DNA from: Streptomyces barringtoniae
GTDB taxonomy: Bacteria; Actinomycetota; Actinomycetes; Streptomycetales; Streptomycetaceae
Reading direction: 5' to 3'
Assembly (NCBI RefSeq): GCF_020819595.1
Contig: NZ_JAJHNP010000015.1
Location: 1 to 64,000, forward strand
DNA: 64,000 bases
In this document: piece by piece, positions 37,543 to 40,935 of the stretch
Position numbering within the stretch: position 1 is the stretch's first letter
Layout: every line of letters starts with the position of its first letter
Notes under the pieces: model-generated
Database searches by the model: none
What the model was told of the DNA's origin: nothing
What the model saw: only the letters and a program-made list of their open reading frames with translations
Position numbers and translations under genes: made by a program

Positions 37543-37695
37543 CGTCACTGCGCCGCAGGGGGAGTGCGTGCGGCGCGGGGTCGGGCGGTCCCGGCGGGGC
37601 GGTGACCGCGGGGGATGGCCGGAGCGCGCCATCCTAGAGCCGGAACAGTCCGGCCGACCAGGGGTTTCCCCGCATTGTCAGTGCCGTGGTGTGCA

Positions 37696-40600
37696 ATGGA
37701 TCTCGTGCCCGCACTGCAAGAACCACTGAAGCAGCCGCTGAAGTCGGTGCTCGGCCCCGCCACCGCGAAGGTGATGGCCGAGCACCTCGGCCTGCACACC
37801 GTCGGCGACCTCCTCCACCACTACCCGCGCAGATACGAGGAGCGCGGCCAGCTCACCCGACTCGCCGACCTCCCCATGGACGAGCACGTCACGGTGGTCG
37901 CCCAGGTCGCCGACGCGCGCCTGCACAGCTTCGCCTCCGCCAAGGCCCCCCGCGGCAAGGGCCAGCGCCTGGAGGTCACGATCACCGACGGCAGCGGCCG
38001 GCTCCAGCTGGTCTTCTTCGGCAACGGCGTCCACAAGCCCCACAAGGAGCTGCTGCCGGGCACCCGCGCGATGTTCGCCGGAAAGGTCTCGGTCTTCAAC
38101 CGCCGTCTCCAACTGGCCCACCCGGCCTACGAGTTGCTGCGGGGCGACAGTGACGAGACGGTGGAGAGCTGGGCCGGCGCCCTGATCCCCATCTACCCGG
38201 CCACCGCCAAACTGGAGTCCTGGAAGATCGGCAAGGCGGTGCAGACGGTGCTGCCCACCGCCCAGGAAGCCCTGGACCCCCTCCCGCCGTCCCTGCGCGA
38301 GGGCCGTGGCCTGATCCCGCTCCCCGAGGCCCTGCTCAAGATCCACCGCCCGCACACCAAGGCGGACATCGGCGACGCCCGCGCCCGCCTGAAGTGGGAC
38401 GAGGCCTTCGTCCTGCAGGTCGCCCTGGCCCGCCGCCGCCACGCGGACACCCAGCTCCCGGCCGTCCCCCGCCGGCCGAGGCCCGACGGCCTCCTCGCGG
38501 CCTTCGACGACCGCCTGCCCTTCACCCTCACCGACGGCCAGCAGAAGGTCTCCAAGGAGATCTTCGACGACCTCGCCACGGAACACCCGATGCACCGCCT
38601 GCTCCAGGGCGAGGTGGGATCGGGCAAGGCTCAGCCACTGGACTCGCTCGTCCTCACACCCGCCGGTTTCCGTTGCATGGGCGACTTGAAGGCAGGGGAC
38701 GAGGTCATCGTGCCGGACGGGGAGGTGGCCCTGATCGACGGTGTCTTTCCGCAAGGAGAACGCGACGTCTGGCGTTTGGTCCTTTCCGATGGAAGTTCCG
38801 TGGAGTGCGACGACGAACATCTCTGGATCGTCGGCACGAGCTGCGGGTGGCATCGGGGTGAGAAGCCCAAGGTCATGACGACCCGGGACATTCGCCTGGA
38901 CATGTTCGAGGCAAACGGATCCTCGAAGTGGTACATCCCCGCAGCAGCCCCCGTCGACCTCGGAGGCGACTCCGGTCTGCCGATGGATCCCTACCTGTTC
39001 GGCCTTCTCCTCGGAGACGGCTCGTTCCGCCACAACCTGCGTCTCTCCACGATCGACGACGAGATCCGAGATGCCGTGGAGGCCGCCGTGGCGCCGGGAT
39101 GCCGACTGGTGCCTGTGAAGGACTCCCGCTGCGACTACACGATCCAGCTCACACAACGCGTCGGCGGGGTCCGCAATCCGGTGATCCAAACACTGCGAGA
39201 CCTGAACCTGTGGGGCAAGACGTCGCATGGGAAATTCGTTCCCGACGACTTCAAGAACACGTCGATCAAGAACCGTCATGCATTGCTGCAAGGGCTTCTG
39301 GACACCGATGGAACTGTTCACGCCGATGGCATGAGTGTTTCGCTCTGTTCCGCTTCGCGCAGGCTCGCTGACGACGTCGCCTGGCTCGTACGTTCGCTCG
39401 GCGGCCGTGCGCGCGTCCTGCCGAAGCGCGATGCCTTCGACGTGTCAGTGGCGCTGCCCGACGAATACGCTCCATTCCGTCTGCCCCGTAAGGCCGCCCG
39501 TGTCCGACCCCGGCCGAACTACGACACGTTCCGACGCGGAATTCGCGCGGTCGAGTACGTGGGGCGAAAGCCGGTCCAGTGCATCAGTGTTGTCCACCCG
39601 AGCCACGCCTACGTCACCGACAACTTCACGGTGACCCACAACACGATGGTCGCCCTGCGCGCCATGCTCGCCGTGGTCGACGCGGGCGGTCAGGCGGCCA
39701 TGCTGGCGCCCACCGAGGTGCTCGCCCAGCAGCACCACCGCTCGGTCACCGAGATGATGGGCGAGCTGGCCGAGGGAGGCATGCTGGGCGGCGCGGAGCA
39801 CGCCACCAAGGTCGTCCTGCTCACCGGCTCCATGGGCGCCGCCGCCCGCCGCCAGGCCCTGCTCGACCTGGTCACCGGCGAGGCCGGCATCGTCATCGGC
39901 ACCCACGCCCTGATCGAGGACAAGGTCCAGTTCCACGACCTCGGCCTGGTCGTCGTCGACGAGCAGCACCGCTTCGGCGTCGAACAGCGCGACGCCCTGC
40001 GCGGCAAGGGCAAGCAGCCCCCGCACCTTCTGGTCATGACGGCCACCCCGATTCCGCGCACGGTCGCCATGACGGTCTTCGGCGACCTGGAGACCTCCGT
40101 CCTCGACCAGCTCCCCGCCGGCCGCTCCCCGATCGCCAGCCACGTGGTCCCGGCCGCCGACAAGCCCCACTTCCTCGCCCGCGCCTGGGAGCGGGTCCGC
40201 GAGGAGGTCGCAGGCGGCCACCAGGCGTACGTCGTCTGCCCCCGCATCGGCGACGACGTCGACGAGGCGGCCGACCGGAAGAAGGCCCAGCAGAAGTCCC
40301 CCGAGGACGAGGCGGAGAAGCGCCCGCCGCTCGCGGTCCTGGACGTCGCCGACCAACTGGGCCGCGGCCCCCTGCAGGGCCTGAAGGTGGAGGTCCTCCA
40401 CGGCCGTATGAACCCGGACGACAAGGACGCGGTGATGCGCCGCTTCGCGGCCGGCGAGACGGACGTCCTGGTCGCCACCACGGTCATCGAGGTCGGTGTG
40501 AACGTCCCCAACGCCACGGCGATGGTCATCATGGACGCCGACCGCTTCGGCGTCTCCCAGCTCCACCAGCTCCGCGGCCGCGTCGGCCGGGGATCGGCCC

Positions 40601-40935
40601 CCGGCCTGTGCCTCCTGGTCACCGAGATGCCCGAGGCCAGCCCGGCCCGCCAGCGCCTGAACGCCGTCGCCGCCACCCTCGACGGCTTCGAGCTCTCCCG
40701 CATCGACCTCGAACAGCGCCGCGAGGGCGACGTCCTCGGCCAGGCCCAGTCCGGCGCCCGATCCTCCTTGCGCGTCCTCGCGGTCATCGAGGACGAGGAG
40801 GTCATCGCGGAGGCGAGGGAGGAGGCGACGGCCCTCGTGACCGCCGATCCCGAGCTGGAGCGGCTGCCGGGTCTCCGTACGGCGCTGGACGCCCTGCTGG
40901 ACGAGGAAAGGGAGCAGTACCTGGAAAAGGGCTGA
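37696..40935 (+). CDS. recG: ATP-dependent DNA helicase RecG, interrupted by an intein
   Basis: RecG remodels stalled replication forks and Holliday junctions. The precursor is 1079 residues; removing the 338-residue intein leaves 741, the normal actinobacterial RecG length. Extein order: N-terminal wedge/OB domain (RYEERGQLTRLADLPMDEHV, LQLVFFGNGVHKPHKELLPG); helicase motif I GEVGSGK followed after the intein by TMVALRAML; APTEVLAQQHH; Walker B VVVDEQHRFGVEQR; MTATPIPRT; and motif VI QLHQLRGRVGRG. The intein sits exactly inside Walker A, between Lys311 and Thr. ATG 37696 gives MDLVPALQEPLKQ; no clear ribosome binding site is present, and the frame is open 27 codons upstream. Splicing must occur to restore ATP binding. 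Confidence 0.95.
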   Translation: MDLVPALQEPLKQPLKSVLGPATAKVMAEHLGLHTVGDLLHHYPRRYEERGQLTRLADLPMDEHVTVVAQVADARLHSFASAKAPRGKGQRLEVTITDGSGRLQLVFFGNGVHKPHKELLPGTRAMFAGKVSVFNRRLQLAHPAYELLRGDSDETVESWAGALIPIYPATAKLESWKIGKAVQTVLPTAQEALDPLPPSLREGRGLIPLPEALLKIHRPHTKADIGDARARLKWDEAFVLQVALARRRHADTQLPAVPRRPRPDGLLAAFDDRLPFTLTDGQQKVSKEIFDDLATEHPMHRLLQGEVGSGKAQPLDSLVLTPAGFRCMGDLKAGDEVIVPDGEVALIDGVFPQGERDVWRLVLSDGSSVECDDEHLWIVGTSCGWHRGEKPKVMTTRDIRLDMFEANGSSKWYIPAAAPVDLGGDSGLPMDPYLFGLLLGDGSFRHNLRLSTIDDEIRDAVEAAVAPGCRLVPVKDSRCDYTIQLTQRVGGVRNPVIQTLRDLNLWGKTSHGKFVPDDFKNTSIKNRHALLQGLLDTDGTVHADGMSVSLCSASRRLADDVAWLVRSLGGRARVLPKRDAFDVSVALPDEYAPFRLPRKAARVRPRPNYDTFRRGIRAVEYVGRKPVQCISVVHPSHAYVTDNFTVTHNTMVALRAMLAVVDAGGQAAMLAPTEVLAQQHHRSVTEMMGELAEGGMLGGAEHATKVVLLTGSMGAAARRQALLDLVTGEAGIVIGTHALIEDKVQFHDLGLVVVDEQHRFGVEQRDALRGKGKQPPHLLVMTATPIPRTVAMTVFGDLETSVLDQLPAGRSPIASHVVPAADKPHFLARAWERVREEVAGGHQAYVVCPRIGDDVDEAADRKKAQQKSPEDEAEKRPPLAVLDVADQLGRGPLQGLKVEVLHGRMNPDDKDAVMRRFAAGETDVLVATTVIEVGVNVPNATAMVIMDADRFGVSQLHQLRGRVGRGSAPGLCLLVTEMPEASPARQRLNAVAATLDGFELSRIDLEQRREGDVLGQAQSGARSSLRVLAVIEDEEVIAEAREEATALVTADPELERLPGLRTALDALLDEEREQYLEKG
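38629..39642 (+). mobile_element. Class 3-type intein with LAGLIDADG homing endonuclease domain in RecG
   Basis: In-frame 338-residue insert between GSGK and T of the RecG P-loop. It starts with Ala (AQPLDSLVLTPAGF), where most inteins have Cys or Ser, and ends VTHN before extein Thr. Block B reads DGSSVECDDEHLWIV, with Trp66 in the B:12 position; block F reads VQCISV, with Cys318 at F:4; block G has Thr336 at G:5 before His337-Asn338. This Trp-Cys-Thr set defines class 3 inteins, in which the block F Cys starts splicing. Two endonuclease motifs are present: LFGLLLGDGS (123-132) and LQGLLDTDGT (220-229). Codon use is less GC-biased than in the flanking helicase (GTT, GGA, AAA, TCT, CGA), which fits horizontal entry. 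Confidence 0.93.

Follow-up and report, generated by a model that had tools for sequence, protein, structure and literature searches.

The question raised by this locus of Streptomyces barringtoniae is what an insert of 338 codons is doing in the middle of the ATP binding motif of the helicase RecG, how it came to be there and what follows from it for the host protein. The DNA analysed, a stretch of 64,000 nucleotides, is called the window in the following. The insert is very probably a class 3 intein which is able to splice and belongs to an actinobacterial family that homes into the P-loop codons of recG, a reading drawn from sequence comparison and structure prediction. Published work is given by PMC number and is cited for excerpts of the respective papers.

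The insert, its host gene and its class 3 signature

The recG frame runs on the forward strand from 37615 to 40935 as a single uninterrupted open reading frame which spans the insert, and the NCBIfam model NF008167 identifies the host protein as RecG (1126 bits, cut-off 995). The insert of 1014 nt lies in frame between ...GEVGSGK and TMVALRAM... of RecG, i.e. between the lysine and the threonine of the Walker A motif, GSGK/T (here and below the slash marks the insertion point or the bond concerned). The first-pass annotation had the position (38629-39642), the length of 338 residues and the splitting of the P-loop right to the base. Its figure of 741 residues for RecG without the insert holds when counted from the second methionine (Met28, 37696), which is likely the true start; from the first ATG (37615) the protein of spliced length has 768 residues. 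The insertion is beyond chance: 109 distinct homologues occupy this very position in further recG genes, and 81 RecG genes free of an intein run uninterrupted through GSGK/T. Insertion into a P-loop between lysine and threonine has been termed classic (PMC5050341).

Table 1. Positions in the window of the intein, its presumed functional residues and the adjoining parts of recG
Feature	Position	Strand	Basis
RecG N-extein, ends ...LLQGEVGSGK	37615..38628	+	ORF, junction reading, NCBIfam match
Footprint, left part: TCG GGC AAG, Ser codon at -9 to -7	38620..38628	+	occupancy association
Class 3 intein with LAGLIDADG homing endonuclease domain (probable), 338 aa	38629..39642	+	sequence, Pfam, family alignment, predicted fold
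Ala1, i.e. no Cys/Ser/Thr at intein position 1	38629..38631	+	109/109 RecG inteins
Block B D61-x-x-H64-L-W66 (His B:10, Trp B:12; numbering of PMC5222942)	38809..38826	+	
LAGLIDADG motif 1, residues 122-133 (YLFGLLLGDGSF), presumed catalytic acid D130	38992..39027	+	
LAGLIDADG motif 2, residues 219-230 (LLQGLLDTDGTV), presumed catalytic acid D227	39283..39318	+	
Cys318 (VQCIS), block F nucleophile (F:4)	39580..39582	+	109/109 RecG inteins
Thr336-His337-Asn338, block G (Thr G:5, terminal Asn)	39634..39642	+	109/109 RecG inteins
RecG C-extein with helicase motifs and stop	39643..40935	+	ORF, Pfam/NCBIfam, motif check
Thr +1, also the RecG Walker A Thr	39643..39645	+	109/109 occupied genes
Footprint, right part: ACG ATG, A at +3	39643..39648	+	occupancy association

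The signature of class 3 inteins consists of a tryptophan at B:12, a cysteine at F:4 and a threonine at G:5 (WCT), with serine or threonine at +1 in all known cases but one (PMC5222942). A DxxH in block B has been described for the class in a paper which displays mycobacterial DnaB and PhoH inteins as class 3 (PMC6195587), and a Cys-His-Thr triad in another (PMC7664689). The window intein has all these marks of the literature: WCT, DxxH, His B:10, the penultimate histidine, the terminal asparagine and threonine at +1. Seven splicing residues (A1, H64, W66, C318, T336, H337 and N338) are invariant in the 109 distinct RecG inteins, which represent 141 loci after merging of duplicates; D61 is kept in all 40 that were aligned. 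W66, C318 and T336 are also the same in all 16 sequences of a diverse family alignment which spans RecG, PhoH, phage DnaB, phage and archaeal-virus terminases, a T2SS ATPase and a SNF2-like helicase. With the predicted fold in agreement as well, the class 3 assignment of the first-pass annotation is supported, and the WCT residues are conserved in relatives.

The window intein is predicted to have a HINT fold. An AlphaFold2 model built from 40 RecG inteins reached a mean pLDDT of 87.2 and a pTM of 0.80, and a Foldseek search with it returned PI-SceI, the yeast VMA intein, in first place (E 2.2e-16), I-DmoI from rank 18 onwards and, between ranks 33 and 47 with E values of about 4e-5 to 7e-5, the class 3 inteins 6bs8, 6riy and 6rix, with 29% identity between 6bs8_C and the window intein over 90 aligned columns. 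PI-SceI, the best fold match, shares the architecture of HINT plus LAGLIDADG; it splices via Cys1 as a class 1 intein and has another host and target. A sequence search of the PDB gave 6bs8 (a class 3 DnaB intein), gp41-1 variants and 6rix/6riy as the best matches, and with a profile of the 16 family members 6riz, a gp41-1 intein engineered with the WCT motif, came first, followed by gp41-1, class 3 DnaB inteins and PI-SceI, the latter for the endonuclease part. The link to biochemically proven class 3 inteins is made by these sequence and fold matches, none of the proven sequences being in the trees.

The LAGLIDADG domain seen in the first reading of the sequence was found again: besides the fold matches to PI-SceI and I-DmoI, the insert scores 34.4 bits with Pfam LAGLIDADG_3 (cut-off 22.5; a single matched stretch which covers the second motif) and 22.8 bits with Pfam Hom_end (cut-off 21.1). 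D130 and D227 are the residues which we take to be the catalytic acids of the two motifs. The mycobacterial class 3 DnaB inteins (Msm DnaB-1, Mle DnaB and MchDnaB1; 6bs8, 6rix and 6riy) resemble the RecG intein in WCT, DxxH and insertion in the P-loop (PMC6195587, PMC5222942), but they reside in DnaB and, according to the excerpts of these papers, are devoid of an endonuclease domain or called mini-inteins.

Inteins of class 3 type in PhoH of Actinomycetes belong to the same family, with about 39-44% identity to the RecG intein, mostly an AQ start, a THN end and threonine at +1 in nearly all that were read. They differ in their site, which is YMRGR/TLN ahead of the DEAQN motif rather than the P-loop, and branch as a group of their own. 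In a family tree computed quickly from 47 rows, which holds one presumed Cys1 outgroup, no biochemically proven class 3 sequence and long branches that meet, the window intein falls with WCT-bearing relatives, and 12 RecG inteins form one group (SH-aLRT 100). This group adjoins a SNF2-like P-loop intein (SH-aLRT 94), the deeper order being unsure at these long branches. One of the 12 comes from a Rhodococcus plasmid (locus L243): it occupies the same GSGK/T site and is 50.7% identical to the window intein, but it differs in its plasmid-borne host, its length of 353 aa and a lysine rather than methionine at +2. The plasmid's own RecG homologue with intein (L243:1603-5280) stays under the cut-offs of the curated RecG models (for TIGR00643 it scores 550, with 659 needed), and the next gene encodes a tyrosine-type integrase.

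Members of the family were seen in further settings. PhoH-site inteins in Streptomyces and other Actinomycetes are represented by L114-L124, L130 and, in part, L254-L276. A related intein lies at QGN/TSN in frames of 1711-1715 aa (L125, L126 and L129), and the Pfam matches T4SS-DNA_transf and TraG-D_C mark the L125 frame as a type IV coupling protein. Another, with a THN end, sits in a UvrD-like helicase at GAGCGK followed by serine (L113). Relatives of about 38-39% identity lie on enterobacterial plasmid records (H44-H48 and H67), H44 being annotated traD, and a viral contig match of 31% identity covers residues 20-295 only.

Distribution, descent and exchange

In a scan of genome contigs the best 80 of 137 relatives all lie in frame in the P-loop of Streptomyces RecG. 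At least 71 of 392 genomes of the genus Streptomyces were read, by identity, frame length and position, as bearers of an intein at the RecG site (45 with an alignment over the whole length and 26 with one broken into pieces; 125 of the 392 have some match), and the RecG intein is present in roughly one sixth of the sampled Streptomyces genomes. The remark in the first-pass annotation that a class 3 intein is unusual in RecG is therefore not supported, and RecG already stands in the list of intein hosts in Table 1 of a review (PMC5874633). Of the 71 genomes, 53 were read as loci (L001, L084-L112, L117 and L131-L152) and three more as L158, L165 and L251, while for the remaining 15 the judgement came only from row data (identity, frame length and, in some cases, the coordinates of the adjacent RecG). 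For 26 other hosts/genera the examination covered fetched loci only.

In a subset of 150 genomes a RecG match (E up to 1e-100) was obtained for 147, of which 24 are occupied. Among the 123 unoccupied RecG genes 82 were read, namely the 81 which continue straight through GSGK/T and L201, in which the frame breaks right after the insertion site and which was excluded from the counts. The other 41, with unread junctions, have open frames of at most 871 aa, which leaves no room for RecG together with an intein of the observed sizes. Extra residues, about 26-31 in number, split the C-extein match near query position 212-225 in three of the empty RecG genes (L186, L196 and L199). Within the family, 24 of 150 genomes gave any match (E up to 1e-20), and a RecG intein was found in two of other genus codes: in G870 both junctions were read, in G779 the N-junction was read and the C-junction was unmatched by the search pattern. 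Among the fetched loci from 394 genomes of the class, which represent a minority of the 99 matching genomes, no RecG intein was found outside the window genus; the loci there are PhoH-type, plus one SNF2-like. A second copy of the intein in the window genome was not found, apart from one weak match (E 0.27).

Among 50,697 phage records 785 contain relatives. A phage or plasmid as recent vehicle was considered, but none was found in the phage and plasmid collections searched, the closest relatives among the matches listed being 38.7% identical for phages and 50.7% for plasmids.

Intein presence is clustered yet very patchy. On a FastTree phylogeny of 190 RecG genes (110 occupied and 80 empty, the occupied ones over-represented by design; RecG with fewer than 250 N-terminal or 380 C-terminal residues and C-extein duplicates left out) it needs 45 changes, 35 of them forced by starred branches, compared to 61 with shuffled labels, and none of 500 label shuffles came as low as 45. 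The nearest RecG to that of the window (L155, 6.7% apart) is intein-free. The nearest occupied RecG (L059) is 7.4% apart, but its intein is 21.5% apart, and the nearest intein (L052, 16.1% apart) resides in a RecG 12.0% apart. L002 and L016 have inteins which differ by 2%, but their RecG sequences differ by 10%. The first-pass annotation had suggested a recent arrival from codon use. This argument is weak: third-position GC is 0.77 in the insert and 0.92 and 0.96 in its flanks, but a low value is common to the family (median 0.82, range 0.72-0.98, n=109) and was discarded as a sign of recent arrival. Horizontal arrival is supported by other evidence, namely the intein-free L155 and the more distant intein of L059.

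The trees of intein and host disagree. In AU tests with 40 genes (10 chosen and 30 random, trees by fast search) the RecG topology is rejected for the intein (delta lnL 847, p 7e-5) and the intein topology for RecG (delta lnL 907, p 1e-5). As a control, the N part of RecG rejects the tree of the C part by 290, and the C part that of the N part by 114; the intein tree is worse by 630 for the N part and by 236 for the C part. Because the two halves of RecG conflict as well, part of the disagreement comes from recombination of the ordinary kind, or from noise, within recG. The distances between inteins are correlated with those between their RecG hosts (r 0.75, 0/999 permutations as high), which points to much vertical inheritance. 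The comparisons thus indicate descent with frequent exchange, part of the exchange being ordinary recG recombination.

A literature search, with subscription papers and InBase outside its scope, found no paper which joins a class 3 intein and RecG; one in which intein, RecG and Streptomyces occur together (PMC1193525) does not discuss such an intein in the excerpts concerned. An earlier description of the genus-wide RecG intein series or of the DNA footprint treated below was not found.

A DNA footprint at the insertion site

By homology the LAGLIDADG domain would cut intein-free recG at the GSGK/T codons, and repair of the cut allele would copy the intein in; the patchy distribution, the conflict of the trees and the footprint lend this indirect support. 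When occupancy was compared with each of 848 variable nucleotide columns of RecG in 109 occupied and 80 empty genes, the four columns with the strongest association were +3, -9, -8 and -19, all within 20 nt of the site, with Fisher p-values of 1.4e-8 to 2.2e-7 which are descriptive as they ignore kinship. In phylogenetically independent pairs, columns within 20 nt take ranks 1, 2, 3, 8 and 22 of the 848, and -19 is outside the top 20. Column +3 has on average 8.1 pairs with and 0.0 against the association, -9 and -8 have 12.8 with and 2.2 against. As a group the 14 columns within 20 nt exceed the rest (Mann-Whitney p 1.5e-4, linkage ignored). Since the leading columns are +3 and the three bases of one serine codon, they amount to two codons and not to four independent sites. 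TCN at the P-loop serine combined with ATG at +2 is present in 104 of 109 occupied and 38 of 80 empty genes, or in 55/57 and 38/81 with the genome-draw loci alone.

The difference between occupied and empty genes at the P-loop serine codon is synonymous. Of 14 conserved serine codons in RecG, it reaches p 8e-8 and the next lowest p 0.07, a small control in which only about four codons vary; of eight Met/Leu sites, +2 is the strongest (1.4e-8) and two others reach 2e-4. Intein presence goes, then, with a DNA footprint of about -9 to +3. In the mcm intein of Haloferacales occupied and empty sites likewise differ beside the insertion point (PMC10643990). There the empty alleles have a proline after the site which is thought to block splicing (PMC10643990), whereas in recG the strongest difference on the left-hand side is a synonymous serine codon: splicing chemistry could bear on the Met/Leu change at +2, not on the synonymous serine change.

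The footprint can be explained by target choice of the endonuclease, with AGC and CTG-type alleles being resistant, or by very short co-conversion. Following the former, we tentatively propose that recG alleles may escape the intein by recoding its target at little or no protein cost, with serine TCN changed to AGC (synonymous) or ATG at +2 changed to CTG, TTG or CTC (methionine to leucine), and that about half of the sampled empty alleles (42/80) may be naturally resistant to homing. Target alleles of lower homing susceptibility have been modelled (PMC3229294).

Short co-conversion of the flanks with the incoming intein, in place of target choice or resistance of empty alleles, has a reasonable but less than even chance of being the right explanation. 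When the rest of RecG is controlled for, divergence in the 60 nt that follow the site goes with intein distance (partial r 0.34, 0/999 permutations as high), and this stretch ranks 3 of 35 in a partial correlation scan, but windows far away are as high (0.42 at -180, 0.35 at +600), and the upstream 60 nt, which contain the serine codon, do not track intein distance (r -0.01, 588/999). Nor do L002 and L016 share a long identical flank: they are 97% and 93% identical in the two windows of 90 nt that follow the site and 93% identical ahead of it; long co-conversion tracts were not seen in any of the five pairs examined.

Endonuclease loss, splicing and RecG activity

The window copy is of full length and has both endonuclease acids. 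Among the 109 RecG inteins D130 is present in 79, D227 in 85 and both in 71, so that at least one is missing in 38; of the 84 inteins with at least 336 residues 66 have both. The remaining 25 are shorter than 336 residues, down to 249, with deletions mostly within residues 131-203. For 250 random pairs from 66 inteins of equal length, with an intein dS near 1, median dN/dS was 0.077 in each splicing part, 0.137 in the endonuclease part and 0.062 in the C-extein. The value for the N-extein, 0.19, is above that of the endonuclease part and is doubtful (last 150 codons, pieces unaligned beforehand). The sequences thus portray splicing residues which are kept and an endonuclease which appears less constrained and intermittently lost, matching the expectation of the homing cycle.

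Empty alleles, full-length inteins, inteins with lost acids and those in which most of the endonuclease region is deleted form a large natural series at one site. With it the homing cycle, and the target alleles of lower susceptibility which have been predicted (PMC3229294), become directly testable. The testing ground consists of tractable soil bacteria and a repair helicase whose ATP site would be rebuilt by splicing, and the short RecG inteins are candidate class 3 splicing tools.

By homology to studied class 3 inteins, Cys318 of block F, helped by His64, Trp66 and Thr336, would attack the Lys/Ala1 bond. The N-extein would then pass to Thr+1, Asn338 would cyclise, and the exteins would join with restoration of GSGKT. 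As the insert splits the P-loop, unspliced RecG should lack ATPase activity. The six RecG motifs are intact in 109/109 occupied genes and, with the exception of one motif (79/80), in 80/80 empty genes, and the 147 genomes, out of 150, which gave a match at E up to 1e-100 have a single recG each, a gene that appears as two pieces in three of them; splicing is therefore needed if RecG is to work. Over aligned codons, median dN/dS of RecG was 0.18 for occupied and 0.24 for empty pairs, and equal in more distant pairs.

Gating of RecG activity by splicing, as raised in the first-pass annotation, follows logically from the site and is in this sense predicted, but regulation is not favoured over a mobile element which does little harm. 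That the intein is a domesticated splicing switch, kept for delaying or conditioning RecG, e.g. by oxidation of Cys318, perhaps together with the conserved Cys60, appears unlikely. The position in the P-loop would suit such a switch, C60 is found in 107/109 and C318 in 109/109 RecG inteins, and the class 3 DnaB intein of M. smegmatis is inhibited by oxidation via a Cys48-Cys118 disulfide (PMC6195587). The window intein, however, has no cysteine between residues 17 and 59 and hence no obvious counterpart of Cys48, and C60 also occurs in six of nine aligned members from outside Streptomyces RecG, which argues against a RecG-specific switch. The patchy distribution with its 35 forced changes and the intein-free RecG only 6.7% away suggest in addition that the intein is dispensable. 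That the insert is decaying or dead and no longer splices, in a RecG which the cell can do without, is very improbable: the loss of endonuclease acids in 38/109 relatives would agree with it, but the splicing residues are invariant and the RecG motifs intact (109/109 each), dN/dS is low in intein and C-extein, and none of the 80 best loci has a stop inside the insert. The mobile element remains the preferred reading. Across the RecG intein family dS is roughly double the value for the adjoining C-extein (median 0.85-1.02 compared to 0.44), either via exchange or by weaker codon constraint.
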